Below are positions 17,028-28,128 of a stretch of DNA of 34,519 nt, piece by piece (position 1 is the stretch's first letter; every line of letters begins with the position of its first letter). The stretch lies in contig JACMQW010000053.1 in assembly GCA_014376785.1 (NCBI GenBank), positions 1 through 34,519 on the forward strand, read 5' to 3'. Origin of the DNA: Oligoflexia bacterium. Lineage in GTDB: Bacteria; Bdellovibrionota; UBA1018. The notes under the pieces are model-generated. The model made no database searches and had not been told where the DNA came from. It worked only from the letters and a program-made list of their open reading frames with translations. The position numbers and the translations under genes were made by a program.

Positions 17028-17099
17028 GCATTCGAGCATTCGAGCATTCGAGCATTCGAGCATTCGAGCATTCGAGCATTCGAGCATTCGAGCATTCGA
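17028..17099 (+). repeat. Nine perfect tandem copies of GCATTCGA
   Basis: The 8-bp unit GCATTCGA is repeated nine times without change from 17028 to 17099, starting 3 nt after the recombinase stop codon. Because 8 is not a multiple of 3, three units give an 8-residue repeat in any reading frame. The array is outside any convincing gene. Confidence 0.97.
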
Positions 17100-17366
17100 G
17101 CGATAAAGGGGCGACCCGTTAAATTTTCTCCGAACGAAAAATTATAAATTTATTTCGATTAGACTCATTATTTTCTTGGTGGCTTATCGAATTAAAATTT
17201 TGCGTGTCCGAGATGAGCTGACTCGTCTTCTCGGTAAAGCGCTTAGCGAGCGTGAGGAGAGCTAAATTTCGCATTTCACCTCGTTTGCTAAAAAATCCAA
17301 ATCGAGCTCACCCTGACCATCCTCGAGCGAAAAATTCTCCTCGAAAAGCGGGTGTATACCCTATCG
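17100..17366. other. AT-richer intergenic region before the HNH gene
   Basis: About 270 nt without a gene. The first half (about 17120-17200) is AT-rich and could hold a promoter, although I cannot fix -35/-10 boxes. Around 17208-17234 an imperfect stem has arms CCGAGA and TCTCGG, and a GCGCTTAGCGAGCG element follows near 17238. A small RNA or leader is possible but not supported beyond these stems. Confidence 0.45.
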
Positions 17367-18907: not shown

Positions 18908-19690
18908 ATGAACCTCCATTCAAAACTTCTGAACGCTGTCGTCGCCGCACTCCTCGCCACCCTCTGCACTTCCACGACCACTTTCGCCGAAGAAAAGGCG
19001 CCGACCGAAAAAGTCGTGAAAAAGAAGTACGGCCCGACTGCGACTCGGCTTTTCGATGCGCACGAGTACGTCCGAAAAAACGCAGCGCCGGATTATTGGG
19101 CACTCTCCCCTTACTACGATCCTCAAATGAACGGGGCCGCCTGCTCCCTCGCAAGCGTGACCATGGTCGTAAACGCCGCACGCGCGTCGATGCCACTCAC
19201 CGCTTCTGACGAACTCGCAACCCAACCGAATCTTCTGAAAAAAGTGAATAGTTCGGTTTGGAATGAGGGCGTCGCAAAGGGCACAACCGGCGTCGATCTC
19301 GACCAGCTCGGCGTTTTGGTCGGCCAGAGTTTGAAAGCTTACGGGCTAGAGCCGCTAAAAATCGAAGTCGTTCACGTCGACTCGACAACGGACGCGATGA
19401 TGAAAAAAGTCCGCTCGGTGCTTGAGCAAAACGAGAAAAATGCGAGCGACTTCGTCATCGCGAACTTCCAGCAAAGCGATTACACGGGTGATCCGGAAGG
19501 TGCGATCGGACACATCGCGCCGGTCGCAGCGTACGACCGCAAGGCGAAAAAAGTCCTCGTGATGGACGTTGATCGCCAGTACTACGAGCCCTACTGGGTT
19601 TCTGAAGAAACCTTCTTAAAAGGAATGGCTACGAAAGACTCCGGCGGAAAAAACTTTCGCGGATTCGTTTACGTGACTTTAAAAAAATAG
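18908..19690 (+). CDS. Secreted phytochelatin-synthase-like cysteine peptidase
   Basis: This is a 260-residue protein with a Sec signal peptide ending in TTTFA. The mature part shows the papain-like phytochelatin synthase core. DPQMNGAACSLASVTMVVNA carries nucleophile Cys79; AIGHIAPVAAYD carries His202; KKVLVMDVDRQYYEPYWV carries Asp220. The His-Asp distance of 18 residues equals that of known phytochelatin synthases. There is no C-terminal Cys-rich metal-sensing domain, as in bacterial forms, which mainly hydrolyse glutathione to gamma-Glu-Cys and make little phytochelatin. Export is notable because plant and cyanobacterial relatives act in the cytosol. An AAGAGG touches the ATG, closer than normal. 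Substrate is not proven. Confidence 0.82.
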   Translation: MNLHSKLLNAVVAALLATLCTSTTTFAEEKAPTEKVVKKKYGPTATRLFDAHEYVRKNAAPDYWALSPYYDPQMNGAACSLASVTMVVNAARASMPLTASDELATQPNLLKKVNSSVWNEGVAKGTTGVDLDQLGVLVGQSLKAYGLEPLKIEVVHVDSTTDAMMKKVRSVLEQNEKNASDFVIANFQQSDYTGDPEGAIGHIAPVAAYDRKAKKVLVMDVDRQYYEPYWVSEETFLKGMATKDSGGKNFRGFVYVTLKK

Positions 19691-21985: not shown

Positions 21986-23125
21986 TTGGCCTCACGCGTA
22001 CCGATTACTATCCGTGTTGATCGTTTCGAGGGCCCCCTCGATCTCCTGCTTTATTTGATTCAGAGCCATGAGCTCGACGTCTCTCAAATATCCATCGCGC
22101 GCATCACCGACCAGTACTTGGCGTACGTGCGATTGATGCAGGAATTGAATTTTGACATCGCCTCCGACTTCTTGCTGATGGCCGCAACCCTGATCCAGTG
22201 GAAGTCGAAATCGCTGCTTCCGGTAGAGGTGGATCCGAACGCGATGCTCGATGCCGAAGGCGATGACGTTCTGTCTCCGGAAGACCTCCTTCGCCAACTT
22301 CAGGAACACCAACGCTTTTTAGCTGCCGGACGCGAACTCGACCGCCTCCCCCTTTTAGGAGACGAAGTCTACGTCCGACCGAACCACCGAAAGCCGATCG
22401 AAAAAATTTGGAAACTCATGGATGTGACGGGACTTGCCCTCACCTACCAAGACCTTTTGGTGAAAGAGCGCAAACGCACCACCATTTTGAAAAAAGAAAC
22501 GGTTTCGCTTGCGGAAAAAATCCTCGATTTCGGGGACCGTATGGAAGTCGGAAAATTAACCGGACTTCGCGCATTGTTGCGTGATCCGACGTCGAACCCA
22601 GAGACCGTGGTGAGTTTTCTCGCGACTCTGGAACTCGGCCGCTTGAAAAAGATGAAGCTCTACCAAGAGGGGACGTACGAAGAGATTTATGTGGAACTTC
22701 TTGAGAGCATTAAAGGATTTGATACCGCATTGGCTTCGGGATTTGATTCCATCGAAGCTGCAATCGCTAAAGACCTCTCCGATCGAAACGAAAAGCGAGA
22801 ATCCGACCGAATCCACGAAGCCGACAGACTGGCAGGACTTACTGCCGGAATCGGAGCCGAGTCTGAATCTTCAGCCGACAATACAAACGGAGATGCCTCC
22901 GAAACTTTCGGAGCCCCTGGAGATTCTACTGAAGGTGGCGACACCGCTGGAGATTATACCGAGATACTCCTGGCCGCTGAGTTTGGAACTGAAGACGGCC
23001 CCGGCGCTCGAAATTCTGCTGAGGTTGAGCACGCCACGGAGCTGGGAACTGAAAACCGCCCCGGTCTTGGAAATCCTAGCGATCACGGACTGGCGGGACG
23101 CCATTCCGGAGTCGATCACGGTTAA
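21986..23125 (+). CDS. scpA: Segregation and condensation protein A (kleisin)
   Basis: This is a 379-residue protein. The first 245 residues are a complete ScpA: FEGPLDLLLYLIQSHELDV at the N-terminus, ARITDQYLAYV, FLLMAATLIQWKSKSLLP, and the C-terminal winged-helix region LATLELGRLKKMKLYQEGTY. ScpA bridges the SMC heads and with ScpB forms the condensin that organises and segregates the chromosome. The start is TTG 21986 with GAGGGAG eight nt upstream. After residue 250 comes an extra tail of about 125 residues rich in Gly, Glu, Asp, Thr and Ala with weak internal repetition. Codons in this frame are mostly G-initial, so the tail appears genuinely translated even though the scpB frame is also open there. 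Confidence 0.95.
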   Translation: MASRVPITIRVDRFEGPLDLLLYLIQSHELDVSQISIARITDQYLAYVRLMQELNFDIASDFLLMAATLIQWKSKSLLPVEVDPNAMLDAEGDDVLSPEDLLRQLQEHQRFLAAGRELDRLPLLGDEVYVRPNHRKPIEKIWKLMDVTGLALTYQDLLVKERKRTTILKKETVSLAEKILDFGDRMEVGKLTGLRALLRDPTSNPETVVSFLATLELGRLKKMKLYQEGTYEEIYVELLESIKGFDTALASGFDSIEAAIAKDLSDRNEKRESDRIHEADRLAGLTAGIGAESESSADNTNGDASETFGAPGDSTEGGDTAGDYTEILLAAEFGTEDGPGARNSAEVEHATELGTENRPGLGNPSDHGLAGRHSGVDHG

Positions 23126-23177
23126 TGAATTAACCGAAATCCCGTTCGAAACGATTCATGAGGAGTCTGTAGCCGCT

Positions 23178-24980
23178 ATGTGCCCGAAAAAAACCAAAAC
23201 CGAAACTTTATCCGAAACTGCTGCGCCCCACACGACTCCAATCGACGCGATCACAGACAATGAAAACACCCTGGAAACAGCGGCGCTTGAAACGGCTGCA
23301 TCTGAGTGGGCAACTGACGATTCAGAAGTCGAAGAAAACGACGAAAAGATGAACGAAGCGGCCGTGGAAGCGACCGGAAGTTTCAACTCTAAACCCGAAG
23401 CGGCACCTGAAGCAGACGATGAAGCGCGCGAAACTCCGATCTCACTGATGATGAATCCTTATCAATTGAACGACACCCGCGATATCTCCGCCGCTCAAAA
23501 CTCAGACGAGGAATTAGAGCTCGACGAAGTTCCCGGGCATGAAGCCGATGCCTATGAAGAAGCCGCCCTTGAAGCAGTCGCGGCTGAACTTGCCGGTGAC
23601 TGGATCGAAACCCCGCTCAGTGCAGCCACCGCATTCCGCGAAGAAGAGGCGGCTGGATTAGAAGCGAAAGCCGACGTGGTCACGGAACTGAATCAGTTGG
23701 CTCCTTCCGCCGAAGTGCTCGAAGCGGCCGGTTTAGAAAGCCCAGAGTCCGAGCAGGTAGCACAATCGGTCGAACCTGAATTCGCACGGGCACTCGATGA
23801 AGCAGAAGCAAACTTAGAAGACGACTTTGCAGAAGACTCTGAAGAAGATGCCCCGCTTGAACTCGCCGATGATGCGGAAATGGCAGAGACCCTCACCCGC
23901 CTCCAAAAGAAAATGGAACTCGAAGCAGCCGAAGGTGTGAAAGCGCTGGAAGCGGCAGCCGCATTGACCGCTAAAGACGCAAAACAACTGCTCGCTGACC
24001 AAATCGCCGAGGACGAGGCTCTCGAACAGGCCATGGCTGATGAGAACGCGGAAGAAATCGATCCGGAACTCCAGGCTGCCTTGCCCCGCGAACCCGAAGA
24101 AGATGAATCGGGAAATCTCGATCTCACCGAGATGGAAAGCTGCATCGAATCGATTCTGTTCATGTCGGAGAAACCTCTCAGCGCAAAAAAACTGCAAGAC
24201 CTTCTCGGTCCCGACTTAGCCCTCGAATATTTCGAGCAAGCCCTGGTGAACCTCGCCGCTCGATACCAAAAACGCTTTCATGGGTTCGAACTCCTCGAGA
24301 TTGCGAACGGCTACCAATTTCGAACGAAGATGGCGCGGGCGCCCCTCGCTAAGAAGTTGGCAAAAGTTCAGACCCAGCGTCTTTCGACGGGCGCGATGGA
24401 ATCACTTGCGATCATCGCCTATAAACAGCCAGCCCTGAAAGACGACATCGATCAAATTCGCGGAGTGGACTCCTCGCACTTTATTCGCGGTCTGCTCGAT
24501 AAAAAGCTCATCAAGATCGCAGGACGCTCCGAACTCCCCGGCCGTCCGATGCTCTACGCAACCACGAATGATTTTCTCGAGGTATTCAGCTTGAAGTCGC
24601 TGGATTCGTTGCCGGCACTGAAGGAACTGGAATCGATGATTCCGGGCAGCCAGTCCGGAAATCCAGAAGACCGCGACCCTCGCGTGGTGAAAATGCGTGA
24701 GCTGGTCGAAGAAATGAACTTAGATGACTCCGTCTCCCTTCTTTACGATCCGAAAGAGGACGAAGCGTTCTTGTCCGAAATTCGTGAGCGAGTGAAGTCG
24801 ATCGAGATCGTCACTCCGACGCTCCAAGCTCAGAATGACGAAGCCGACGCGGTGAAGGCCGCAGGTAAAGCGCGGGCGAAGGCAATCGCGAACGGAACGT
24901 TGGATGAACAGTCGGAATCCTTTGCGGCCGCTGTCACCAAAGCACCCGTGGGTGAAACGGCGGAAATGCCGATTGAGTGA
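23178..24980 (+). CDS. scpB: Segregation and condensation protein B with long acidic N-terminal extension
   Basis: This 600-residue protein is about three times the usual ScpB length. The ScpB core starts near residue 315 (LTEMESCIESILFMSEKPLS) with two winged-helix domains; LAIIAYKQPALKDDIDQIRG and GRPMLYATTNDFLEVF are diagnostic. ScpB dimers bind ScpA and support SMC. Residues 1-315 are dominated by Glu, Asp and Ala (for example EEEAAGLEAKAD, ALDEAEANLEDDFAEDSEED), probably disordered or helical. The frame is open upstream to 22689, inside scpA, but ATG 23178, 52 nt after the scpA stop with AGGAG 12 nt before it, is the first start after scpA ends. An Ala-rich tail follows the core. Confidence 0.92.
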   Translation: MCPKKTKTETLSETAAPHTTPIDAITDNENTLETAALETAASEWATDDSEVEENDEKMNEAAVEATGSFNSKPEAAPEADDEARETPISLMMNPYQLNDTRDISAAQNSDEELELDEVPGHEADAYEEAALEAVAAELAGDWIETPLSAATAFREEEAAGLEAKADVVTELNQLAPSAEVLEAAGLESPESEQVAQSVEPEFARALDEAEANLEDDFAEDSEEDAPLELADDAEMAETLTRLQKKMELEAAEGVKALEAAAALTAKDAKQLLADQIAEDEALEQAMADENAEEIDPELQAALPREPEEDESGNLDLTEMESCIESILFMSEKPLSAKKLQDLLGPDLALEYFEQALVNLAARYQKRFHGFELLEIANGYQFRTKMARAPLAKKLAKVQTQRLSTGAMESLAIIAYKQPALKDDIDQIRGVDSSHFIRGLLDKKLIKIAGRSELPGRPMLYATTNDFLEVFSLKSLDSLPALKELESMIPGSQSGNPEDRDPRVVKMRELVEEMNLDDSVSLLYDPKEDEAFLSEIRERVKSIEIVTPTLQAQNDEADAVKAAGKARAKAIANGTLDEQSESFAAAVTKAPVGETAEMPIE

Positions 24981-25052: not shown

Positions 25053-26318
25053 CTAAAATCCGTAAGCCGTTTGAACCAGGCGCAGGATTTCCGGTTTTTT
25101 TGAATTCACCTCGAGAAAGAGCTCTGAACCCTCGCGGCCACTCGCGAATGCATCCGTGCCCTCAACATAAATCCGCTCTAAGTTTGGAGATTTCACCGAT
25201 TTGAATTCAGCGTTCAACCGATGAAAGAGTTCGGCCCGAGCAGCTAACACATCGCGAATCTCGCCGAGCGTCGTTTTGCCTTTATTTTCATAACTGAGAA
25301 CGGTGGAGATCTTCGTACCTGAACGAGTTCGGTATCCATCGAGGTAGATGCCCTCAAAGTTCGAATGGATATTTTTCTGAATCCAAGCTGAGCTTTTCGC
25401 TTCCTGGGAGAGTTCCGAAAAAATTCGGGTTAATATCCGCGATCCTCGCGCCACCTCCACCATCCCAAGCGACATGCCGAGTAGTTTTGAACCTTTTTCG
25501 AGCGGGGCGAGCGCTCCATGACGATTCGCGGTTTCGGCATTCAGATCCTGGGCATTCGCGGCCCAAGTTTCCAAATAGGCGACCACTTCATCGACCGAGT
25601 AATAGCCTCTGTATTCCGGAGACACGTCCGCTTCACCCTCTAAGTATCCGTTGAACGGATGGATTTTATGGTCGAGTGTTTTCTGGGAAGAACGAAAATG
25701 AACCAGTTCGTGGCGAATCGTCGGAGTGGTTCGGTGGGTGTTCAAAAGCGTTTCCTCAAGGGCTCGGCTCCCGATCACGATCTGCCGAGCAGATCTAAAA
25801 AAGAGCGGGTTCACTCCCTTCGTAGCATCTCGGTGGCACATGGCTTCGAACGAATCAGAAAGCGCGTCTGGCCAGTAGACAAACTTCGCCCCTCGGTCGT
25901 GTAGATACTGCGCGATTCGATTCACCTGATGCCCTTTCCCTGGCAGAAACCGGATTCCCAGCTCCGAACGCCCCTCCGAAATGTCGGTCGAGACTTCGGC
26001 TGAGATTCCGATTCGGTTGAACTCTGCGCTGATCCTACGGTATTTCTCCATCGTCGCTGCATGGGCAAGCGGAGCTACATTTCTCGTGACGAAACCAAGT
26101 TCTTCACCTCGAATGCGCTCGATCAGCTTTGACGCTTCCTGAATTTTTTCTTGGTCTTCTAAAAGAGATTGGCAATCGGCGTAAGCACCCACGCTCAATA
26201 GAGTCGCAAGTGCGGACATCAGCGTCAGTACCAGAGTCATTGCCCGCACCAGTCTTCGTGCCGGATGCAGCGTCAAAATATTGCTCTCTTCTTTGAGACG
26301 CGAAAGCCTCTTTCCCAT
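25053..26318 (-). CDS. Putative exported zinc metallopeptidase (HELVH)
   Basis: This is a 421-residue protein. A hydrophobic segment (about residues 27-47, MTLVLTLMSALATLLSVGAYA) is a signal peptide or anchor behind a long basic n-region; an internal ATG would give a normal signal. The metalloprotease motif TIRHELVHFRS has His203, Glu204 and His207. EGEADVSPEYRGYY about 22 residues later could give the third ligand, as in gluzincins. The family is not recognised, so peptidase activity is inferred from the motif. It follows the larger metallopeptidase gene by 49 nt on the same strand; the two probably form an operon. ATG 26318 follows a weak AGGTG; GTG 26324 is also possible. Confidence 0.68.
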   Translation of the reverse strand: MGKRLSRLKEESNILTLHPARRLVRAMTLVLTLMSALATLLSVGAYADCQSLLEDQEKIQEASKLIERIRGEELGFVTRNVAPLAHAATMEKYRRISAEFNRIGISAEVSTDISEGRSELGIRFLPGKGHQVNRIAQYLHDRGAKFVYWPDALSDSFEAMCHRDATKGVNPLFFRSARQIVIGSRALEETLLNTHRTTPTIRHELVHFRSSQKTLDHKIHPFNGYLEGEADVSPEYRGYYSVDEVVAYLETWAANAQDLNAETANRHGALAPLEKGSKLLGMSLGMVEVARGSRILTRIFSELSQEAKSSAWIQKNIHSNFEGIYLDGYRTRSGTKISTVLSYENKGKTTLGEIRDVLAARAELFHRLNAEFKSVKSPNLERIYVEGTDAFASGREGSELFLEVNSKKPEILRLVQTAYGF

Positions 26319-26367
26319 CTTCACCTATCGGAAAAAACCCAGGCGGCGATGAATGAAAAGCGGGAGA

Positions 26368-28128
26368 TTACGGCGACCTCACATGGCAGTCGCGAAAGAC
26401 CTGACGATGACTGAGCTCTGGAAGCGAACGGCAAGCTTCCGGAAGCCCTCCCGTGTGAAGCCTTTCCGTATGGACCAACCGAAAAAGCGGACTGGAATGG
26501 AGATCGCCTCGATCTGGATTATCGAAAGAGAGGACATCGCTTGGGAATTGCCGAATCGGATGGCAAAATTGGTTTCGCTCGTTTGGTCGAAAGCTCGCAG
26601 AGATGAGATCGGCGAAATCTTCTTCGCCATATCGCTGGGCTTCAGCGTCGCTTGCTCCGAGCGCCCGGTGTTGGCCTGCTAGGCACCCCGTGGTCGCTGA
26701 AAAATCTTCTTTCACGAAATGTGAAACGTCTGAGCGGCTGATGGCATCACTCCAAGCATGACCCATTTCGTGTGCGGTGACCGCTTCGAACTCGTGCGCG
26801 GTGATTGATTCGACGCTGTGAACGATCTTCTTTTCGTTTCGATCAAAAAAATCCGCAAAATAGTCGGCTTGCTGGGGGTCGTTCCATCGTCTTCCAAGCT
26901 TCTCAAGCATAGGATCATCGATCGAATTCATTAATGTCGACATCGGATCTGCTCCCTCTTCGGGTGGCTGCGTTCGGTAAGCGATGTCATCTTCCATCCA
27001 CTCGATAAAACGCTGATGAACTTCAGCCGGCGTTGGAGGGAGTTGGTAAGTGGATTCGGTAAAAGAACTTTTCAATTTTTCGAAGTCGTCTGACTGGAAA
27101 ATACCGTGCGAGTAGTGACTCTGCATTCCTGCAAGCACGGCTTCGGCCGTTTCCCAGACTTGTGCCTGAAACTTAGGGACCTCGGACCCGCGAACGCCTA
27201 GGTGAAGACTCCGGCGGTACGCTGCACGCCAGGCCTTTTTTGATTCCTTTTGCTCAGCACGCGCATTTTTTATAAAATGCGCCGAAGTGAGCCGAGTGAA
27301 TACCGCTCGGTAAGTTCGGTTCCATTCCGCGTCTTTTTTTTCGCCGCGGAAATTAGCCACCATCTGCTTCAGCAAAATGGGGTGAGTCCGAAGTTCCTTC
27401 ACCCATTCGACTAAAAAGAATATTTTCTGAATTCGACGAAAGTCTTTCGGAAGCGGCGCTAAGCTTAAATCCAAATCGCGAAGGTAGCGAATTCCGCTCG
27501 GAGAAATCAGCACTCGTAATACGGAATCCCTCGCATAACGCCCGTAACCCTTCTTTAACCGCTTCGCAACTTCCCCGAAATTCCGGGGTGCGCGCCAAAA
27601 AGCCTCAGAGCTCAAAACATTTGCTTCCTGAACGATGGGAGTGAAAGTCGCCGCGTACTCCGGACTCGACTTCATTTCTAAAATTTTCAAAGCGATTTCA
27701 GGGCCCAGCAGAAGACTCACCCAGCCCTCCTCGGTGTAGGCCTCATTCGAGTTGAAGAGCAGCGAAACTGCGTATCCTTCATCGAGCCAACTCGGTTTAA
27801 AAGCTTCCTCAGATGTAAGGGACGCCAATGTCTCAGATTGGATCTTAAAACGCATGGACATCCAGCGATCCAGTAAGCGCTCGAACTCCACCAGCTGATC
27901 CGCTTTAGGAGACTGCCCGATAGAGAGTGAGGACTGATCCTCGATTTCCTCTTCCGGAGCATCTCCGCAAATGGCTGACAAGCAGGCGTTTAGCTCCGCC
28001 TGGGAAGCGGACCGCGCAAGCTCGGGCAAGTGGTCCGTTTTGGAGCACCCAATGAGAGTTAAGATCGCCAGGGAGGCAATGAGTAGAACCAACCCGCTTT
28101 CGCGTATGAAGAATAGGGGCCTGATCAC
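26368..28128 (-). CDS. Metallopeptidase lipoprotein, M13-like C-terminus
   Basis: This is a 586-residue predicted lipoprotein with signal LLIASLAILTLIGC (Cys28). The C-terminal third has the zinc motif TAHEMGHAWS (His453, Glu454, His457), then GEEDFADLIS, which matches the M13/neprilysin ExxAD motif (Glu503, Asp507), then LHSSPLFR, similar to the M13 C-terminal region. The 46 residues between His457 and Glu503 are somewhat fewer than in neprilysin. The N-terminal two thirds are helical and unassigned. M13 enzymes cleave peptides outside the cytoplasm; substrate here is unknown. The start is GTG 28128 without a clear Shine-Dalgarno. It is followed by the HELVH peptidase gene. Confidence 0.75.
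   Translation of the reverse strand: MIRPLFFIRESGLVLLIASLAILTLIGCSKTDHLPELARSASQAELNACLSAICGDAPEEEIEDQSSLSIGQSPKADQLVEFERLLDRWMSMRFKIQSETLASLTSEEAFKPSWLDEGYAVSLLFNSNEAYTEEGWVSLLLGPEIALKILEMKSSPEYAATFTPIVQEANVLSSEAFWRAPRNFGEVAKRLKKGYGRYARDSVLRVLISPSGIRYLRDLDLSLAPLPKDFRRIQKIFFLVEWVKELRTHPILLKQMVANFRGEKKDAEWNRTYRAVFTRLTSAHFIKNARAEQKESKKAWRAAYRRSLHLGVRGSEVPKFQAQVWETAEAVLAGMQSHYSHGIFQSDDFEKLKSSFTESTYQLPPTPAEVHQRFIEWMEDDIAYRTQPPEEGADPMSTLMNSIDDPMLEKLGRRWNDPQQADYFADFFDRNEKKIVHSVESITAHEFEAVTAHEMGHAWSDAISRSDVSHFVKEDFSATTGCLAGQHRALGASDAEAQRYGEEDFADLISASFRPNERNQFCHPIRQFPSDVLSFDNPDRGDLHSSPLFRLVHTERLHTGGLPEACRSLPELSHRQVFRDCHVRSP

Follow-up and report, generated by a model that had tools for sequence, protein, structure and literature searches.

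Most work on SMC-ScpAB has dealt with short forms of ScpB. In the 34,519-nucleotide stretch of DNA analysed here (hereafter the window), the initial annotation had described an acidic extension of about 315 residues on ScpB and a further acidic tail of about 125 residues on ScpA, raising the questions of whether these additions are translated and conserved, and of what such an arm could do for the complex. The window (contig C19 of genome G000) contains, in this order, an M50 peptidase gene, trpS, scpA and scpB; scpA occupies 21986-23125, with its TAA stop at 23123-23125. The parts of the scpA-scpB junction are as follows.

21986-22747, plus strand: ScpA core (PF02616, E 5.2e-26), single copy in the genome.
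22748-23125, plus strand: scpA-frame tail of 125 codons plus stop, moderately acidic, of doubtful coding status.
22689-23177, plus strand: upstream open stretch in the ScpB frame, overlapping scpA from an ATG at 22689, rich in Pro and Leu, with ELKTAP-like repeats, and conserved at the protein level in three genomes of the genus; a possible extra N-terminal part of ScpB.
23178-24131, plus strand: the 318 codons of the acidic ScpB extension, N-terminal to the core and counted from the start with the best support (MCPKKTK...).
24132-24980, plus strand: core of ScpB, its C-terminal part and the stop codon (PF04079, E 9.6e-49; TIGR00281; matches to PDB structures of ScpB).

Elsewhere in the window we observed a perfect 8-bp tandem repeat, GCATTCGA, at 17028-17101 (9.2 copies), a phytochelatin synthase-like gene at 18908-19690 (PF05023, E 1.7e-26) and, on the minus strand at 25053-28128, two ORFs without a Pfam match containing HELVH and HEMGH strings, which we take to be metalloprotease-like.

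Domain models, fold and the neighbouring scpA identify the protein as an ordinary kite subunit ScpB of SMC-ScpAB. The core scores 165.5 bits against PF04079 (cut-off 27.4; residues 485-643 of the frame open from 22689) and 131 bits against TIGR00281 (cut-off 89.2), and Foldseek matched it to 3w6j_F with an E value of 1.1e-15, a TM score of 0.89 by target and an rmsd of 1.8, revealing the tandem winged-helix fold of solved ScpB. SMC is encoded at one locus in the genome (contig C103; an ORF of about 1,231-1,251 aa with both SMC_N domain halves) and ScpA is present in one copy, so the SMC-ScpAB complex of this organism appears to be the normal one. Solved ScpB proteins (3w6j, 4i98, 1t6s) resemble the core in both fold and sequence, and in both cases the gene follows scpA; however, the matched solved chains measure 162-219 residues, compared with 600 here, where a 318-residue acidic arm carrying conserved motifs stands in front. 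Long forms of ScpB as such are already present in annotation, as the NCBIfam model NF001106 ('SMC-Scp complex subunit ScpB, long form') spans 377 positions with about 190 ahead of the core. Only the core of our protein aligns to it (profile positions 198-366), at 76 bits and thus below the cut-off of 300, while the arm is without a match; an NCBIfam search with the arm matched no model up to E 1.

The extension proved to be 318 residues long, close to the length first claimed, with 29% D/E, 5% K/R and 20% A and a net charge of -74. The ScpB frame is open from the ATG at 22689 to the stop at 24978-24980, and its first start after the scpA stop is the ATG at 23178; no stop interrupts this frame within the extension, whereas the two remaining forward frames contain 13 and 22. 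The codon score of the extension (0.124) is near that of the ScpB core (0.134), and a synonymous codon score model trained on 208 of the genome's own genes gave it 0.114 against an in-frame median of 0.103, inside the range covered by pieces of genuine genes. For each of the 11 genome pairs compared, pN was lower than pS in the extension, and dN/dS in unsaturated pairs was, for example, 0.025/0.24 (G028/G032), 0.067/0.88 (G038/G051) and 0.243/0.9 (G004/G027), with 0.078/1.22 in another close pair. Codon use and substitution patterns together indicate that the ScpB extension is coding and under purifying selection. The claim of a highly acidic arm on a condensin subunit was thus right, the coding extension being joined to a normal ScpB core.

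Translation starting near 24100, close to the core, was the reading that the initial annotation itself had set against its claim. We looked for such a start and found that the scpB genes of relatives begin at the scpA stop: among the 42 members of families f1-f5 with scpA in view, the scpB ATG overlaps this stop by 4 nt in 25 and lies at most 30 nt from it in 36. The window's start at 23178 (MCPKKTK) corresponds to MSPKKTK in G001 and to MSKK in G022, G030 and G031. An in-frame ATG stands exactly at the core (24132), where a start codon is not kept in every relative. It was rejected as the main start, because the starts of the relatives, the coding signal and the excess of pS over pN, which points to selection on the extension as protein, make a main start in this region unlikely; a shorter second ScpB product may be made from it.

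General acidity of the proteome was also rejected as the source of the charge, since the 304 ORFs sampled from 404 kb of the genome (the window and 20 further stretches) average a net charge per residue of about 0. When these ORFs were ranked by their most acidic 100-residue segment, ScpB came first of the 304 with -28, followed by -24 and -16, and a segment at or below -20 was found in only two ORFs, one of them ScpB. The second most acidic sampled ORF (L191:2448-3536, on contig C71 of G000; 362 aa, segment charge -24) has an acidic, Pro/Ser-rich N-terminal half with the string LLDDPFNAPLE, loosely resembling motif 2 of the arm described below.

ScpB was found in 231 of 241 genomes of the phylum (Bdellovibrionota), each at least 90% complete. 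Alignment of ScpB from related species, proposed in the initial annotation, revealed that the acidic extension is common to most of the measured genomes: an N-terminal acidic extension of at least 40 aa occurs in 89 of 115 genomes (87 plus 28), which were taken from those with ScpB hits according to what was fetched rather than at random, and in 30 of 31 within the window's own family, f1. The net charge is negative in all 89 (72 in the first batch and 17 in the second). For G020, G044 and G057, which are among the 87, scpA is out of view, so that the scpB starts called there are uncertain, and in G031 an unread base breaks scpA. Within f1 the extension ranges from 28 aa (G015) to 318 aa with a median of 151, that of the window being the longest in the family, and despite this variation in length its D/E content is mostly near 0.25-0.34. 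In families f20-f24 and in some small genomes the extension is mostly all but absent; as there are relatives without the arm, ScpB in general can function without it.

In families f9 and f11, N-terminal extensions of about 40-160 aa are accompanied by acidic C-terminal ScpB tails of about 180-300 aa. L084, L049, L055 and other f9/f11 loci have such C-terminal tails besides the N-terminal arm, together with ScpA tails that are acidic in the scpA frame, while in G099 of f9 (L278, L294) four ScpB-like matches lie on separate contigs. A scan beyond the phylum covered 79 measured loci, an eightieth having been left out for want of a start; of the 79, L105, L106, L107 and L115 were taken as Bdellovibrionota. 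Most extensions at the 75 others are shorter than 15 aa, start calls being unreliable at those without scpA in view; acidic extensions of at least 40 aa were seen in a few, for example at L139 and L148 of Myxococcales and L171 of Acetobacter, and planctomycetes are also among the few outside lineages with acidic ScpB extensions. By these comparisons the arm is characteristic of the family and of the phylum at large, which the earlier reading had missed.

Five short motifs occur in fixed order across 33 aligned extensions, whereas the spacers between them align poorly. For each sequence, a motif profile built without the query's genus was scored against shuffles of the extension (threshold p<0.05); the motifs were derived from related genera, and their similarity is thus partly common descent. 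In the window, the motifs and the helix predicted by AlphaFold2 lie as follows.

23286-23321, plus strand: motif 1, LETAASEWATDD ([LF]xxAAxEWxxD), p<0.05 in 12 of 33 sequences.
23439-23528, plus strand: motif 2, ISLMMNPYQLNDTRDISAAQNSDEELELDE (VTxIxDPFGL...EIxxAQ...ELDLDE), p<0.05 in 25 of 33.
23883-23927, plus strand: motif 3, AETLTRLQKKMELEA, p<0.05 in 26 of 33, with p 0.37 for the window's own copy.
23979-24044, plus strand: motif 4, AKQLLADQIAEDEALEQAMADE, p<0.05 in 27 of 33.
24057-24131, plus strand: motif 5, IDPELQAALPREPEEDESGNLDLTE, immediately before the core, p<0.05 in 15 of 33.
23871-24047, plus strand: predicted single alpha helix, ScpB residues 232-290, covering motifs 3 and 4 (block pLDDT about 79-95).

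Disorder, likewise suggested for checking in the initial annotation, is predicted for much of the arm: pLDDT is below 50 at residues 4-50 and 52-122, that is, at nearly all of residues 4-122, and in several stretches of 141-229. The predicted layout is thus a mostly disordered region up to about residue 230, a helix of about 59 residues (232-290) and then the winged helices, and the relative L105 is predicted to have the same layout with an equivalent helix at 164-219. The alignment behind the helix prediction held 41 sequences, only a handful of them with the arm, and Ala/Glu-rich helices may be over-predicted. A coiled coil in this helix is argued against by the finding that none of 28 sequences has amphipathic periodicity. 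Judged by alignment and predicted structure, the arm is more than a charge tail, combining ordered conserved motifs with a predicted long helix. Other families have stretches of their own immediately before the ScpB core: a different conserved motif, KQEDKLWQARTGL, at f9 loci (e.g., L054, L047 and L051), and a common TELxxFxSAxIExxEF-like stretch in f11, f17 and f18.

The second addition, on ScpA, fared less well. The scpA frame does stay open for 125 codons past the ScpA core with a net charge of -18, as had been noted, but the ScpB frame is open there too and is the better conserved of the two within the genus, which speaks against the tail being real coding sequence. Likewise, the statement that both extensions lie in coding-like frames holds for ScpB, but is not established for the ScpA tail, where codon use is split between G000 and G001. 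It is quite conceivable, if somewhat short of probable, that ScpB in this genus is longer still, being started inside scpA at the ATG at 22689 or produced by a +1 frameshift that links ScpA with the ScpB frame. The acidic arm would then be preceded by about 163 residues of Pro/Leu-rich repeat sequence, and the 'acidic ScpA tail' would be a less constrained reading of the overlap. The ScpB frame is open up to 22689, with an ATG at the same place in G001 and G002, and peptide similarity across the overlap in three genome pairs gave z values of 13.4, 12.3 and 14.7 for the ScpB frame, compared with 0.6, 7.8 and 8.6 for the scpA frame, so that the latter is conserved too in two of the three. In a six-frame test the ScpB frame was top among the forward frames in the overlap, as was the true frame in the scpA core, scpB extension and scpB core used as controls. 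Synonymous codon scores in G001 also favour the ScpB frame (0.199, the in-frame median, versus -0.066 for the scpA frame), whereas those in G000 weakly favour the scpA frame (0.063 versus -0.021).

Against the upstream start, G031 has stops in the ScpB frame upstream, and its ScpB must begin at MSKK, homologous to MCPKKTK; moreover, a GAGGAG lies 12 nt upstream of the ATG at 23178, and a stop-free +1 frame, given the scpA-frame peptides, is no more than mildly unusual (product P about 5e-4 by simulation over nine genomes, with G031 left out). Beyond the window's genus, neither frame of the overlap is clearly conserved. A repeat search of the ScpA-tail DNA returned no direct repeats, the ScpB-frame peptide having loose ones, and a search of the genome with the overlap peptide returned only itself and no second copy. 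In other families, a long ScpA tail accompanies stops in the ScpB frame (f9 except G074, f11, f14, f17, f18 and part of f15); because the ScpB frame is thus interrupted in most of the other families examined, the ScpA tail is real there. For the window's genus, the claimed acidic ScpA tail is doubtful and may be a shadow of coding in the ScpB frame, and the two open frames at 22689-23177 point to possible overprinting or an upstream ScpB start. We retain 23178 as the best-supported start of the acidic arm.

What might the arm do? ScpB sits on ScpA as a dimer close to the SMC heads, and for this reason two arms would surround the DNA-binding surfaces. We tentatively propose that this ScpB has a lineage-specific N-terminal regulatory or docking arm of SMC-ScpAB, a mechanism put together from sequence, predicted structure and analogy. 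Through their charge, the acidic spacers would make non-specific DNA contacts weaker, the motifs would bind a docking partner (SMC, ParB or a nucleoid protein) that relieves this masking, and loading or movement of SMC-ScpAB could then be restricted to the right place or stage. That the arm competes with DNA or binds basic proteins, as first suggested, is possible.

Several described systems offer partial parallels. The N-terminal tail of the kleisin CAP-H is described as restraining condensin I loading (PMC9797191) and is likewise a tail on a non-SMC subunit that tunes loading of an SMC complex; the likeness is one of role, and CAP-H is a eukaryotic, phospho-regulated kleisin, unlike the bacterial kite protein ScpB. 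D/E-rich disordered tails, as described for DNA-binding proteins, autoinhibit them and can speed target search (PMC10250230). The ScpB arm, net negative and predicted to be disordered, resembles such autoinhibitory tails, including those of the HMGB1 type, in placing a large disordered negative charge beside a DNA-binding machine; however, some HMGB1-type tails are consecutive D/E runs, whereas the ScpB arm has acidic spacers between conserved motifs. Docking through a short motif in a disordered region is described for KIF4A, which binds condensin I in this way (PMC11790958). In the phylum itself, a review depicts chromosome organisation in B. bacteriovorus, whose SMC is Bd1158, as relatively little known (PMC11318664).

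We consider it unlikely that the arm is instead a nearly neutral acidic linker, a low-complexity sequence that the scpA-scpB junction tolerates and whose charge is kept for solubility only. Such drift would fit the ten-fold variation in length within f1, the poor alignment of the parts between the motifs and the sporadic acidic ScpB tails and extensions in other phyla, but it sits badly with the ordered motifs in most relatives, with purifying selection on the extension and with a charge sign kept in 89 of 89 long extensions.

A histone offers another target. The genome encodes a Bd0055-type histone (G000 C87:54061-54234, within L215 at C87:53900-54450; E 1e-30, and E 1.3e-15 against PDB 8cmp), and in B. 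bacteriovorus Bd0055 is described as the most abundant protein of the nucleoid fraction (PMC10627809). A first search of the phylum with PF00808 detected the histone in 44 of 241 genomes, and an alignment built from some of those hits raised this to 228 of 241. The arm could therefore act mainly on this histone in a chaperone-like manner, stripping or fending it off so that SMC loads on or passes along coated DNA. Among 99 genomes (the 115 minus those less than 90% complete), 70 have both the histone and an extension of at least 40 aa, 18 the histone only, 4 the extension only and 7 neither (Fisher p 0.005, uncorrected for phylogeny), which weakly supports an attractive and plausible link. With 22 exceptions in the 99, including f24 with the histone and no arm, and with G013 having a 106-aa arm and no histone found, we regard action mainly on the histone as improbable, even more so than a neutral linker. 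A bolder version, to which we give similarly little credence, is that the condensin arm of Bdellovibrionota is a built-in histone chaperone or charge gate that in the window's genus also grew upstream by overprinting the end of scpA. If this were true, the arm would allow SMC-ScpAB to load on and move along DNA sheathed by the Bd0055-type histone, and would be a bacterial equivalent of the tails and chaperones through which eukaryotic condensins can act on chromatin.

Returning to a regulatory or docking arm as our preferred, tentative reading, a literature search over titles and the beginnings of abstracts returned no description of such an ScpB arm, and it is a real, conserved and apparently undescribed variant of ScpB. 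Long acidic ScpB arms occur across the phylum, including in predators with extremely compact, histone-bearing nucleoids, and several lineages have acidic arms also on the C terminus of ScpB and on ScpA. The arm would thus serve as a natural experiment on the tuning of a bacterial condensin by disordered charge and short motifs, and may provide a route to finding condensin regulators.
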